Assembly (NCBI GenBank): GCA_016936755.1
Contig: JAFGXF010000025.1
Location: forward strand, 1-41,583
Length of the DNA stretch: 41,583 bases
From: Anaerolineaceae bacterium
GTDB lineage: Bacteria; Chloroflexota; Anaerolineae; Anaerolineales; Anaerolineaceae
Direction: 5' to 3'
In this document: one piece after another, positions 34,479-38,760 of the stretch
Position numbering within the stretch: the first letter of the stretch is position 1
Layout of the letters: every line of letters begins with the position of its first letter
Made by a program: the position numbers and the translations under genes
Notes under the pieces: generated by a model
The model's input: the letters and a program-made list of their open reading frames with translations, nothing else
The model's database searches: none
What the model was told of the DNA's origin: nothing

Positions 34479-35837
34479 TCAGTCCAGTGTCTTTTGAAGG
34501 GCTGACAACAGGGCAGTATCCTGCGCTGGCAATACTGTTCGCGGGTCGAGCATCACTTGATCGTTTTCGATGCGGGCGATCACCGGTGGGTCCACCTGGC
34601 GCAGCTTAACCATGAAGTTGTGCGGATTGCGGACGTCCAGCGCCAGCAGGCTGGTGGGCAAGGTCTCTTCCGGCAGGCTGCCGCCACCCACGGTTGATAA
34701 ACCCCCGATGATCGTCCCGAAGTCAAGGGTTGCTTGCCATGCAGATGTTCTCAATTTCAACGATGCTTCAGTTTCCGATATCATACGCCAGACCGGGATC
34801 TGATTCTCTGCATCGCCTTTAAGGTAGTGGATCAAGGTGGCAGATAAAGCGGCCAGGCAGAGTTTATCCACTCTCATCGCACGTGCCAGCGGATGCTTTT
34901 TTAGTTTGGCGACCAATTCGTTTTTACCCAGAATGATCCCCGCCTGGGGACCTCCCAGTAATTTGTCGCCCGAAAAACATACCAGGTCACACCCGGCTGC
35001 CAGCGATTCCTGAACAGTGGGTTCATGACCCAGTCCGAAATGGGCGGTATCCAGCAAGGCTCCGGATCCCTGGTCGTCGATCATTAACAAGTGATTGCGA
35101 GACGCCAGGTCTGCCAGATCCTTCAGGGCAGGCTCAGATGTGAACCCGATGATCTTGAAGTTGGAGTGATGAGCGTGCAACAGGGCGATTGGATCTCTCT
35201 CCAATGCGCTTTCGTAATCCGCCAGTGAAACCCGGTTGGTGGTACCGACCTCGATCAATCTCGCACCGGATTGAGCCATCACCTCGGGAATACGGAAACC
35301 TCCGCCGATCTCAACCAGCTGGGTGCGCGAGATGACCACCCCTTTACGCCGGGCGAAGGCGCTGAGTACCAGCAGCATCGCCGCAGCATTGTTGTTGACC
35401 ACCAGCGCAGCTTCGGCACCGGTCAAGCGGCACAACAGGTTGGAAGCATGCACTGTACGCGACCCGCGACTGCCGTTTAACAGGTCGTATTCGAGTGTGT
35501 TGTATCCGCTGGCGGCAGCCAGCAGCGCCTGTTGTGCTGACTGACTGAGTGGGGCACGCCCCAGATTGGTATGCAGGATCACGCCGGTGGCATTGATGAC
35601 CGGGCACAAGGTGGGTGCAAGCCAGGATTGCAGCCGGACGGATGCGATTTTCAACAGCCGTTGATCGTTTAATGGTTCTGAAGCCTCATCAGGGGTCTTC
35701 AAGTGCATGCGGATATCATCCAGCGTGTCCCTGATGGCCGCCAGGGTCAATTCGCGACCGTATTGCTTGATTAAATCAGTGGCTTGATCAGCCCGCAGCA
35801 GGGTATCCACCGATGGCAGATGACTGAAGTCGTTCAT
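34479..35837 (-). CDS. selA: L-seryl-tRNA(Sec) selenium transferase
   Basis: The 452-residue PLP enzyme converts Ser-tRNA(Sec) to selenocysteinyl-tRNA(Sec) using selenophosphate. It keeps the N-terminal helical domain needed for tRNA binding, then INATGVILHTNLGRAPLS (81-98), EYDLLNGSRGSR (116-127), and FSGDKLLGGPQAG (288-300), in which Lys292 is the PLP lysine. Length matches bacterial SelA. ATG 35837 is chosen because it overlaps the stop of the upstream membrane protein gene by 4 nt (ATGA). No selB, selC or selD is present in the window, and I see no gene interrupted by an in-frame TGA. Confidence 0.94.
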   Translation of the reverse strand: MNDFSHLPSVDTLLRADQATDLIKQYGRELTLAAIRDTLDDIRMHLKTPDEASEPLNDQRLLKIASVRLQSWLAPTLCPVINATGVILHTNLGRAPLSQSAQQALLAAASGYNTLEYDLLNGSRGSRTVHASNLLCRLTGAEAALVVNNNAAAMLLVLSAFARRKGVVISRTQLVEIGGGFRIPEVMAQSGARLIEVGTTNRVSLADYESALERDPIALLHAHHSNFKIIGFTSEPALKDLADLASRNHLLMIDDQGSGALLDTAHFGLGHEPTVQESLAAGCDLVCFSGDKLLGGPQAGIILGKNELVAKLKKHPLARAMRVDKLCLAALSATLIHYLKGDAENQIPVWRMISETEASLKLRTSAWQATLDFGTIIGGLSTVGGGSLPEETLPTSLLALDVRNPHNFMVKLRQVDPPVIARIENDQVMLDPRTVLPAQDTALLSALQKTLD

Positions 35838-36250
35838 GATTCCTGTGGCGGCACCCATTTACTGCGCTCCCACATGCGCAGCAGTACCTCTACCAGGATC
35901 ACCACGATTGCCAGAATGCCGGCCAGAAAACTGGTCAAGACCCGTCCAAGTTGCAGCCAGGCGATCAGGCTGACATACACACCTCCCCAGATTCCCTCAC
36001 GCAGAATGACCGGCATGCTTACCGGTGGCTTGGACGGAAAGCGAATGTTGAGCAACAATGCGGCTGGCAGTGCCAGTCCGGTGGCTGCCAGTACGATGAA
36101 GAAATAAAATACCCAGCGTGGAAAAATGGTTGGCAGGCTGTACTGCATGAGGATGAATAATCCCAGGATGCCGGTTGCCAGCAGGAAAATGCTGAGGGGT
36201 AGAATGGAACGGATGGTGGGGGGGGAGCTATTCATATTATGGTTAACCAT
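35834..36250 (-). CDS. Small polytopic membrane protein of unknown function
   Basis: The 138-residue protein has about four hydrophobic helices and a short C-terminal tail ending in a charged, Trp-containing segment (MWERSKWVPPQES). No family is recognised. The start is uncertain: ATG 36250 lies in a perfect palindrome (ATGGTTAACCAT, 36239-36250) and has a weak AAAGAAA upstream, while ATG 36235 has none. It is sandwiched between the ATP-cone kinase gene (10 nt) and selA (4-nt overlap), so the three are likely co-transcribed. Confidence 0.65.
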   Translation of the reverse strand: MVNHNMNSSPPTIRSILPLSIFLLATGILGLFILMQYSLPTIFPRWVFYFFIVLAATGLALPAALLLNIRFPSKPPVSMPVILREGIWGGVYVSLIAWLQLGRVLTSFLAGILAIVVILVEVLLRMWERSKWVPPQES

Positions 36251-36260
36251 TCGGGTTTCT

Positions 36261-37601
36261 TTAATAAGTATACACACTGCCACCGATGAACTCACGGATG
36301 ACCGAATCACTTGGCACGACCCCGGTATCATCCAGTGGTGTGATCCATTTCAGGAAGTTGAAAGTGCGGCTGGCACGTTCGAAGGCATCTTTTTGCAGCG
36401 GGTCTTCGCGGTATTTCTCCACCCAGCCGGTAAACTGCTCGATCAAGCGCGGCTGGTAGATGGAGAGCTCATACGGCATGGCGCTGTTGATGATCACATC
36501 GGTGCTGGTAATGAATGGGATGATGAAGCGTTTCTCGCTGTTACGTACATAGTGCCAGTGCAGCAGGGTGCGGGTCGGGTCATATGCGCGGAAGGACGCA
36601 TCGCGTAACATGCGCCGCATCAGGCGGATATCGGTCCATCGGATGTATTCACCGGATGGTGTTTTCATCTGCAGCAGGGGTTCAAGATATAGTTTGAATT
36701 TTCGCTCATCCGAAATCCCCTGTGTCATATCTGGGAAAAGCCCGTGCAGGCTGTCGATCAAAATAACCTCATCCGCCCCGATACGCATGGGGGTATGATC
36801 CAGATGACGTTTTCCAGTTTTAAAATCATAAAAGGGGATTTTTACTTCCTCCCCGGCGATCAAGCGGTTGATGTGTTCGTTGACCAGTGGCAGGTCAAGT
36901 GCAAAGGGGGTTTCGAAATCATAGTCGCCAAATTCATCTTTGGGGTGCATTTCAAGGTCGAAGAAGTAGTGATCGACAGTGAGTGATACCAGCTTGATGC
37001 CGGCGCGCTGCAGTTTTTCACTGACCTTGATGGTTGTGGTGGTCTTCCCGGAAGATGAGGGCCCGGTGATGATCACCAGCTTGAGGTCCTTGCGGCGTTC
37101 CAGGATCAGGTTGCTGGCGTTTTCGATATCCTCGTGATAGGCTGCTTCCGATTCGGTGATGATGGCATCCAGGTCGCCGCGATTGACGCGTTCGTTGTAG
37201 CTGTCAATGGTATGGACGTCATGTGTGACCGCCCAATCCAACACGTGCCAGATCTTGGCCCACGGGACATTCTCAGAGGGGCGGTCGGTAGAGGCAACCC
37301 GGTCACTGCGTAGGCGGGCGCGTTCGTCGCGGTAAAGGATGTAGGCTTTGGCAACGCGGGCATGTCCATTTTCGATCAGAATTTTCTCCACTGCATCCTG
37401 GACCTCCTCCACCGTCGGTGTGGCGCCCGGTTTAACCTGCGTTTCGAGGTACTGCACCACTTCTCCTGCCAGTTGTTCCGAGAGCTGTTTGTCACGCCCG
37501 CCTACGGATACCGCCGCACGGTAAATCGCGTTGGCGATCCGTTCACTTTTGAATTCGACTACTTCGCCACTTCGTTTTTTGACCTGGGTGATGGTTGACA
37601 T
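36261..37601 (-). CDS. ATP-cone domain fused to a uridine-kinase-like P-loop kinase
   Basis: The 446-residue protein has an N-terminal ATP-cone domain at about 1-100 (VKKRSGEVVEF, RIANAIYRAA, VAKAYILYRDERARLR), a linker, and a kinase domain of the uridine kinase/phosphoribulokinase type. Walker A is GPSSSGKT at 180-187, and the later GDYDFETPFALD, FKTGKRHLDHTP and REFIGGS motifs match the nucleoside-kinase-like family that more often carries a TGS domain. ATP-cones sense ATP/dATP in ribonucleotide reductases, so allosteric control of the kinase is inferred. The substrate is unknown. It is first in an operon with a small membrane protein and selA. Confidence 0.85.
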   Translation of the reverse strand: MSTITQVKKRSGEVVEFKSERIANAIYRAAVSVGGRDKQLSEQLAGEVVQYLETQVKPGATPTVEEVQDAVEKILIENGHARVAKAYILYRDERARLRSDRVASTDRPSENVPWAKIWHVLDWAVTHDVHTIDSYNERVNRGDLDAIITESEAAYHEDIENASNLILERRKDLKLVIITGPSSSGKTTTTIKVSEKLQRAGIKLVSLTVDHYFFDLEMHPKDEFGDYDFETPFALDLPLVNEHINRLIAGEEVKIPFYDFKTGKRHLDHTPMRIGADEVILIDSLHGLFPDMTQGISDERKFKLYLEPLLQMKTPSGEYIRWTDIRLMRRMLRDASFRAYDPTRTLLHWHYVRNSEKRFIIPFITSTDVIINSAMPYELSIYQPRLIEQFTGWVEKYREDPLQKDAFERASRTFNFLKWITPLDDTGVVPSDSVIREFIGGSVYTY

Positions 37602-37691: not shown

Positions 37692-38189
37692 ATGATACCC
37701 GACAACTTCATTTCGGTCATTAAATTACTTGCCAGCCAATGTGACCGGCTGGGGCTGCGCTGGGCCTTTACCGGCAGTCTAAACCTCGCTTTATGGGGTT
37801 TTATTCTCGAGCCGCATGATATCGACCTGGAGACCGACTGTTTTGGTGCTGAGCAGATCGATCTCTTGCATAACGATAAAGCAACCTGGCCGTTGCACCT
37901 GAGAGAGTCAGATTGCATGCGTTCCCACTTTGCGCGTTACGATATTGATGGCGTCCAGGTTGAGATCATGGGCGACTGCCAGTACCACCTGCCAGACGGC
38001 AGCTGGGTTAGGCAGCGCCCGCTGGAAAAGCGCATCCATCGCATCGAATGGAGGGGACTAAGCCTTCCCCTGTTGAAACTGCCGGATGAACAGGAGAGCT
38101 GTCAGTGGATGGGCCGGCTCGAAAAGGCTGAGCGGATTCGGGCCTGGCTGGCCGAACATCCCGATCCTTCCACGTCTATAATAAGGTGA
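37692..38189 (+). CDS. Nucleotidyltransferase-superfamily protein
   Basis: The 165-residue protein has the short nucleotidyltransferase signature: TGSLNLALWGF with Gly28-Ser29, followed by DIDLE with Asp43 and Asp45, and a likely third acidic residue in VEIMGD. This is the layout of minimal nucleotidyltransferases and of aminoglycoside-2''-type adenylyltransferase relatives, which transfer a nucleotide to a small molecule or protein. The substrate is unknown. Its stop is 4 nt before a membrane-anchored nuclease-like gene, so the two form a pair. The ATG has no strong ribosome binding site, and a TATGAT box lies 11 nt before it. Confidence 0.7.
   Translation: MIPDNFISVIKLLASQCDRLGLRWAFTGSLNLALWGFILEPHDIDLETDCFGAEQIDLLHNDKATWPLHLRESDCMRSHFARYDIDGVQVEIMGDCQYHLPDGSWVRQRPLEKRIHRIEWRGLSLPLLKLPDEQESCQWMGRLEKAERIRAWLAEHPDPSTSIIR
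38177..38182 (+). promoter_or_regulatory. -10 box inside the end of the nucleotidyltransferase gene
   Basis: TATAAT in the last codons of the nucleotidyltransferase gene ends 11 nt before the ATG of the nuclease-like gene. The 11 nt include AAGGTGAT, a ribosome binding site, so a start just downstream would leave too little leader to use it. Confidence 0.3.
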
Positions 38190-38193
38190 TCTG

Positions 38194-38760
38194 ATGAGCG
38201 ACTCCTCTTTGTTTTTATATATCATCCTGGGACTGGTGATCCTGATCCTGTTCATCTTCCTGATCGTGTTGACATACCTGTACATCCAGACACGCAATCA
38301 GATAGCCGGCCGTGCCCAGGAACTGTATGACCGCTGGCGGGAAGTGGATATCGTATATATACGCGAGGAACAGAACCGCCTGGCAAGCGCGGATGCCAGG
38401 TTGCGATTCGAAGAGTGGCTTCAGGAGAAGGAAAAAGGGATCCGTGAGGATGCCATCTCCAAGAGTCAGGCGGTGACGATGGGCAAGGTGACCGAGCACT
38501 TCATCCCCCACCTGCCTGAGTTTAAATTTAATCCGCAGGATGCGCGTTTCATCGGCAGTCCAATAGATTTTGTGGTCTTCGACGGGTTAAGCGAGGGAAA
38601 TCTGCGCCAGGTGGTGTTTGTCGAGGTCAAGAGTGGTGGATCAACGCTCACCACGCGCGAACGCCGGGTGAGGGATGTGGTGCAAGCCGGGAATGTGATG
38701 TGGCAACAGGTGAAAACGAAGGTGAAAGGATCTCTTATCGATGGGCAAAGGGGGTTTTAA
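38194..38760 (+). CDS. Membrane-anchored Holliday-junction-resolvase-related nuclease
   Basis: The 188-residue protein has one N-terminal transmembrane helix (about residues 7-30), a coiled-coil-like charged region (35-90), and a C-terminal domain resembling the Holliday-junction resolvase-related endonuclease family. The PD-(D/E)xK-like core is GSPIDFVVFDGL followed by VVFVEVKSG, then TTRERRVRDVVQAGNVMW. The catalytic Asp and Glu-x-Lys appear intact. DNA cleavage at the membrane is inferred, not shown. AAGGTGAT is a good ribosome binding site. It is convergent with the BMP-type lipoprotein gene, 2 nt away. Confidence 0.72.
   Translation: MSDSSLFLYIILGLVILILFIFLIVLTYLYIQTRNQIAGRAQELYDRWREVDIVYIREEQNRLASADARLRFEEWLQEKEKGIREDAISKSQAVTMGKVTEHFIPHLPEFKFNPQDARFIGSPIDFVVFDGLSEGNLRQVVFVEVKSGGSTLTTRERRVRDVVQAGNVMWQQVKTKVKGSLIDGQRGF

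Follow-up and report, generated by a model that had tools for sequence, protein, structure and literature searches.

The founding paper on the ATP-cone is reportedly that of Aravind (2000), and a "uridine kinase" with a ThrRS module is said to have been described by Wolf et al. in 2000 as an interkingdom fusion. The archaeal 2-phosphoglycerate kinase is an earlier case of a kinase that bears an ATP-cone. In the literature surveyed here, ATP-cones were studied in ribonucleotide reductases (RNR) and in NrdR, a zinc-ribbon transcription factor in which the cone serves as a sensor outside RNR. According to the accessible portion of PMC11226230, two dATP are bound by LbNrdB and by PaNrdA (Table 4), PcNrdD also takes two dATP per cone, and its residues Lys7, Arg8, Tyr83, Arg87 and Arg91 surround the triphosphates and the outer base.

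For uridine-cytidine kinases (UCK), the available text of PMC9163393 gives Asp62 of UCK2 as the base; magnesium is held by Ser34, Asp62 and Glu135, the ribose hydroxyls by Asp84 and Arg166, while Tyr112 and His117 read the nucleobase. The numbering of Arg169 and Arg174 was taken from a table in the accessible part of PMC6274218. The ThrRS-module kinase of Thermotoga maritima (TmUK) formed no UMP from uridine, either whole or truncated, as reported in an excerpt of PMC10248530, and ATP phosphatase activity was recorded with uridine present; the authors considered that such activity without UMP formation fits a regulatory role. Autoregulation of translation by the ThrRS-type form has also been proposed in print.

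Gene and domain organization

The window (41,583 nucleotides, positions 1 to 41,583 of contig JAFGXF010000025.1, assembly GCA_016936755.1, from an Anaerolineaceae bacterium) carries an intact open reading frame with an ATG start on its reverse strand (36261..37601), encoding a protein of 446 aa whose full-length relatives are 54-68% identical to it. An ATP-cone was identified at residues 6-95 (37317..37586, reverse strand, like all parts of the gene given below) by Pfam PF03477 (72.7 bits vs a cut-off of 25.8, E 3.7e-20), by alignment to PDB sequences and by its fold. A PRK/uridine-kinase P-loop domain followed at residues 177-373 (36483..37073; PF00485, 63.5 bits vs a cut-off of 22, E 3.1e-17), with UCK2 and Thermus UCK as best Foldseek matches. 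The first-pass annotation had proposed an N-terminal ATP-cone and a kinase half recognised by three motifs, and the Pfam search bore out both. The motifs are GPSSSGKT, the P-loop (residues 180-187, 37041..37064, kept in 58 relatives), GDYDFE (225-230) and REFIGGS (436-442); G180, K186, D228 and R436-G440 were among the invariant columns of 58 aligned relatives.

Between cone and kinase, a short linker (residues ~100-112, 37266..37304) had low confidence, with AlphaFold2 pLDDT down to 48 in block 101-110. It was followed by a helical extension (residues ~113-170, 37092..37265; helices 114-126, 132-140 and 144-168), common to the ThrRS-type kinases, which aligned to the ThrRS-type paralogues and lay outside the UCK alignments. 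The AlphaFold2 model, computed from 58 aligned sequences, had a mean pLDDT of 88.7 and dropped solely in the linker near residue 105. A kinase-only model (pLDDT 93.8) gave the same fold placement as the full-length one, and both halves are predicted with confidence to fold as expected.

No NCBIfam assignment covered the whole protein, and the RNR models of that collection matched the cone alone. The 2-phosphoglycerate kinase was considered and rejected: its model (NF003259, PRK04220) matched weakly and in the cone alone (residues 31-94, E 0.044; 13.1 vs a cut-off of 343), with no match in the kinase half.

Two alignments of relatives were prepared. A1 combined the window protein with 57 of the 80 fusion rows, chosen as single representatives of 85% identity clusters; A2 held 37 of the 80 fusion rows, the window protein and 20 of the 21 ThrRS-type rows, with L025 (nearly identical to L028) omitted. 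Residue counts over 96 distinct fusion sequences include one mis-extracted row (L035, branch length 10), which is probably the lone odd letter in most of them.

ATP-cone domain

The modelled cone was superimposed on LbNrdB (5OLK) with Z 16.4 over 97 residues and rmsd 1.4, and Foldseek and VIA-align both grouped the N-terminus with RNR cones. By sequence, the nearest PDB cones were LbNrdB, PaNrdA (5IM3) and PcNrdD (8P23), which share the fold and the nucleotide-contact residues with the cone described here, but sit on an RNR subunit instead of a kinase. Lys7, Arg8, Tyr83, Arg87 and Arg91 of the P. copri NrdD aligned with K9, R10, Y90, R94 and R98, the last lying just beyond the Pfam cone match. 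K9, R10, Y90 and R98 were each kept in 95 of the 96 fusion rows, while R94 was kept in 78 of them and is thus not invariant.

A tree of 45 cones placed the kinase cones with the RNR cones and apart from the NrdR cones (100/100); 14 of its cones were labelled as RNR by frame length alone (703-1152 aa). The grouping of the kinase cones themselves was weak (78/93, recovered in 75% of bootstrap trees, on ~100 columns). NrdR resembles the fusion in using an ATP-cone as a sensor outside RNR, but is encoded by a separate gene in the same genome.

Since the contact residues are kept and the kinase cones are placed with those of RNR, nucleotide binding by the fused cone is likely, and judged from its sequence the cone resembles the type that binds two nucleotides. 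The kept residues also support the earlier suggestion of a nucleotide-sensing domain. By analogy with ribonucleotide reductase, a cone loaded with ATP would allow kinase activity, while a dATP-loaded cone would drive cone-cone contacts and shut the kinase down; the direction of regulation and the oligomers are what we infer from that analogy. ATP binding in the fused cone might also have a structural role only.

Kinase domain and candidate substrates

UCK2 residues were mapped onto the fusion protein by profile alignment and MAFFT, with the numbers placed by us on the printed PDB sequence. In the fusion protein the PRK/UCK fold is present, together with the P-loop and the catalytic Asp. Asp62, Ser34, Glu135 and Tyr112 of UCK2 corresponded to D210, T187, D283 and Y258, and Arg166, Arg169 and Arg174 to R330, R333 and R338. 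Since the catalytic residues are kept, the chemistry looks intact.

The substrate pocket was altered. His117, Asp84 and Tyr65 of UCK2 were replaced by G263 (36813..36815), E230 and F213; hence only Tyr258 is left of the pair that, in the available part of PMC9163393, recognises the base. Gly263 occurred in all 96 fusion rows and in all 21 ThrRS-type rows. Beside the lid, the Arg at column 340 was changed to Tyr in 93 of the 96 fusion rows, and Tyr340 was found in 19 of the 21 ThrRS-type rows. In addition, compared with UCK, an inserted segment (residues ~308-323, 36633..36680) precedes the lid helix, with Gln311 invariant in cone-type and ThrRS-type kinases. G263, H286, Q311, D324, W349 and E356 were common invariants of the cone-type and the Chloroflexota ThrRS-type kinases (58 aligned sequences).

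UCK2, Thermus UCK and Udk share fold and catalytic residues with the fusion protein, but differ in the pocket, the inserted segment and the N-terminal extension. The TmUK-type ThrRS-module kinases share the kinase half, the helical extension and the C-terminal REF-GG motif, and differ in carrying a ThrRS module where the fusion has its ATP-cone; over the kinase part the Chloroflexota members (TmUK's own sequence was outside this comparison) were 33-38% identical to the window protein.

The label "uridine kinase-like" given in the first-pass annotation held for fold and sequence. It did not hold for the udk models TIGR00235 and NF004018, which scored below their equivalog cut-offs (84.4 vs 220.3 and 84.5 vs 180 bits). 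Given the altered UCK2 pocket and the absence of UMP formation by TmUK in the excerpt of PMC10248530, calling the fusion a uridine kinase is doubtful.

We therefore favour, with a probability of about 0.5, a small-molecule kinase gated by ATP or dATP in its cone, whose acceptor is probably something other than uridine. The protein would be a P-loop kinase that stands alone, a member of the phosphoribulokinase/uridine-kinase superfamily with its activity gated by adenine nucleotides bound in the N-terminal ATP-cone. The kinase half would use the gamma-phosphate of ATP to phosphorylate a small hydroxylated acceptor, probably neither uridine nor cytidine. The ThrRS-type paralogue in the same cells would combine the same changed pocket with another N-terminal module.

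The main competing explanation, which we hold to be about half as probable, is a salvage kinase for ribonucleosides or deoxyribonucleosides under dATP feedback, in which the altered pocket only shifts the base preference. The kinase half is nearest by sequence to UCK1/UCK2 and Thermus UCK, and an adenine-nucleotide sensor suits a salvage enzyme. Tyr258 and Arg330, which match Tyr112 and Arg166 of UCK2, are kept, and this also counts against a non-uridine acceptor. The loss of His117 by itself does not exclude nucleosides, because the canonical Udk of the same genome has Asp, not His, at that column. Against salvage stand the udk equivalog models far under their cut-offs, the replacement of His117, Asp84 and the column-340 Arg, the segment ahead of the lid helix, and the presence of that canonical Udk in the genome. 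The inactivity of the related TmUK on uridine, in the accessible portion of PMC10248530, points the same way, although the assay conditions may be responsible for it and TmUK is no more than a relative.

It is unlikely, though still deserving mention, that the kinase half is an ATPase switch or regulator and that the cone reports the nucleotide state to a partner. The excerpt of PMC10248530 speaks for such a switch, in that TmUK showed ATP phosphatase activity without UMP formation and its authors see this as compatible with regulation. Phosphoryl transfer is favoured, however, by the P-loop, Asp210, Asp283 and the lid arginines, which nearly all relatives retain, and no conserved partner gene was found.

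The structural comparison raised another candidate. Foldseek and VIA-align grouped the region beyond the cone with uridine-cytidine kinases and type I pantothenate kinases, and in VIA-align the kinase-only model matched pantothenate kinase with Z 15.6 (220 residues, rmsd 3.8, 14% identity) and UCK2 with Z 14.5 (186 residues, rmsd 3.4, 27% identity). Type I pantothenate kinase, with its N-terminal helices, stood at Z ~15 and 13-17% identity, nearly tied with UCK2. An acceptor such as pantothenate, D-glycerate or another acid would agree with the likeness of the helices before the P-loop to that enzyme, as pantothenate kinases came level with or just above UCK2 and the extension was aligned too, a pattern that recurred in both VIA-align comparisons. 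The Z values are only ~1 apart, and by sequence the protein resembles UCK and not pantothenate kinase, so that we regard an acid acceptor as quite improbable.

Genomic neighbourhood

On the same strand, an ORF for a small hydrophobic protein (35834..36331) without Pfam or NCBIfam match follows the kinase gene; if translation began at an internal ATG (36250), it would start 10 bases past the kinase stop. Further downstream lies selA (34479..35858, reverse strand), encoding L-seryl-tRNA(Sec) selenium transferase (TIGR00474, 538 bits vs a cut-off of 267.9). The two were treated as neighbours only.

A meaningful operon with selA, as had been suggested for this locus at first, found no support. Among 114 loci searched by tblastn (80 with up to 6 kb of flank and 34 with ~1.5 kb, many of them cut by contig ends), only the window's own locus gave matches to SelA and the small protein; the 113 others gave neither. 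A role of the fusion gene in selenium metabolism through its neighbour is suggested by the tight spacing to selA in this genome, and is very improbable in view of that 0/113 and of SelB: despite the full SelA gene, no SelB scored above the cut-off in the genome's own assembly (87% complete), with six sub-threshold matches. A selA-linked pathway was rejected on the same locus count, and the adjacency looks like a coincidence of this genome.

Other neighbours were not conserved either. When neighbours were clustered over 100 loci, the largest cluster occurred at 19 of them and ~5.7 kb away, which gives no conserved partner; the clustering of 80 loci likewise gave none, and among 20 further loci, taken from two other phyla, clusters reached at most 5/20. 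A conserved operon of any kind was rejected on the clustering over the 100 loci. Retention of the full-length fusion across three phyla, with no neighbour conserved alongside it, is what one would expect if the enzyme is self-contained.

The window yielded no tRNA gene, and no Rfam family exceeded its gathering score there; promoter- and terminator-like sites near the fusion gene were as many as in shuffled sequences. Divergent from the kinase gene, with ~90 bases between, lies a nucleotidyltransferase-like gene (37692-38189, forward strand; PF10706, E 1.5e-9). It is followed by a gene for a PF10107 protein (38194-38760, forward strand; E 2e-57), an endonuclease related to archaeal Holliday junction resolvase, with a hydrophobic N-terminus.

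Distribution and descent

The fusion was found in 79 of 147 genomes of the window's family and in 10 of 400 sampled across its phylum. It was also present in 36 of 124 genomes of the phylum to which the L133 genome belongs (deposited as Cloacimonadota), and in 30 of 395 genomes of that of the L109 genome (deposited as Bacteroidetes), where 31 genomes matched and one match was of the ThrRS type. Genomes were counted when the best match reached about E 1e-97 or better, or when a shorter fragment had at least 55% identity (G477 and G641); the kinase half alone was visible in G973 and G879, both among the 30 of 395, and in G418 of the window's own family. The source genomes are mostly metagenome bins, and the phylum names are those of the depositors. 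Identity to the window protein stayed at the level given above throughout, and the cultured Pelolinea submarina also carries the fusion (L100). A contig scan supplied 80 of 493 confirmed relatives to the locus set. The fusion is thus a real and widespread family, with a wide but patchy spread, and not an accident of one genome.

Two diverged fusion copies (L062 and L083, from one isolate, UBA11382) were seen in one metagenome bin among the matches listed. A viral carrier was also considered and discarded, with 34 pattern matches in viral contigs and no relative among them.

A tree was built from the kinase halves of 96 fusion and 21 ThrRS-type proteins, the latter all from one phylum, and each type formed one side of a branch in it (SH-aLRT 93; 97 with the 95 rows left after removal of the mis-extracted one). 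As one branch splits the two types, one joining event of cone and kinase is enough for the sampled set.

Paralogues and ribonucleotide reductases

The genome of the window also encodes a canonical Udk of 214 aa, a kinase of 584 aa with a ThrRS module, and NrdR. This ThrRS N-terminal module agrees with the first-pass statement that relatives commonly carry a TGS-type N-terminus. Cone-type and ThrRS-type kinases occurred together in many genomes, so the former does not replace the latter. The ThrRS-module paralogue (L138:2951-4705, own genome C60) lies tail to tail with a gene that by eye is recA-like, and the two ORF ends overlap by six bases.

Among 15 class II RNRs of fusion-bearing genomes (L145-L159), 14 started without a cone, as judged by eye from the N-terminal sequence and the Pfam cone count, while the fifteenth (L147) was cut by a contig end. 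The RNR of the window's own genome, beside a contig end, was readable only from inside the barrel. With RNRs that lack a cone in these genomes, control of the reductase's overall activity may rest elsewhere. The idea that the kinase carries a cone because the reductase lacks one was dropped: among 68 genomes of the window's family that lack the fusion, 50 had one cone and 4 had none. Since fusion-free genomes mostly have at most one cone, the absence of a cone from the RNR does not go with the fusion in particular, and no conclusion is drawn from it.

Four genomes of other phyla (G538, G539, G540 and G541, whose completeness is not given) had the cone of the kinase as the only ATP-cone detected, and no NrdR cone was found in them.

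Significance of the fusion

Full-text searches of one literature collection gave no published characterisation of the fusion, which is apparently without one; the architecture could nevertheless be on record in domain databases. Literature pairing the ATP-cone with uridine kinase held no description of the fusion, the sole co-mention being a reference-list entry. The first-pass annotation had raised the prospect that this domain order is universal and already characterised; the order proved to be common, and a characterisation was not found in these searches. What is new is apparently the pairing of known parts, an ATP-cone and a PRK/uridine-kinase-type kinase, as a conserved variant.

More tentatively, with a confidence that stays short of even odds, the fusions could form a separate class of dATP/ATP-gated metabolic kinases spanning at least three bacterial phyla, in which the control domain of RNR acts on a different phosphorylation. 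As the kinase cone is the only ATP-cone detected in the four genomes named above, a DNA-precursor signal would there act on metabolism at a step other than RNR. A kinase that is conserved and has an intact two-nucleotide cone would allow a test of whether the dATP/ATP signal steers other metabolism. The fusion would also be a handle on a subfamily annotated as uridine kinase, whose one tested relative, by the available text on TmUK, does not phosphorylate uridine.
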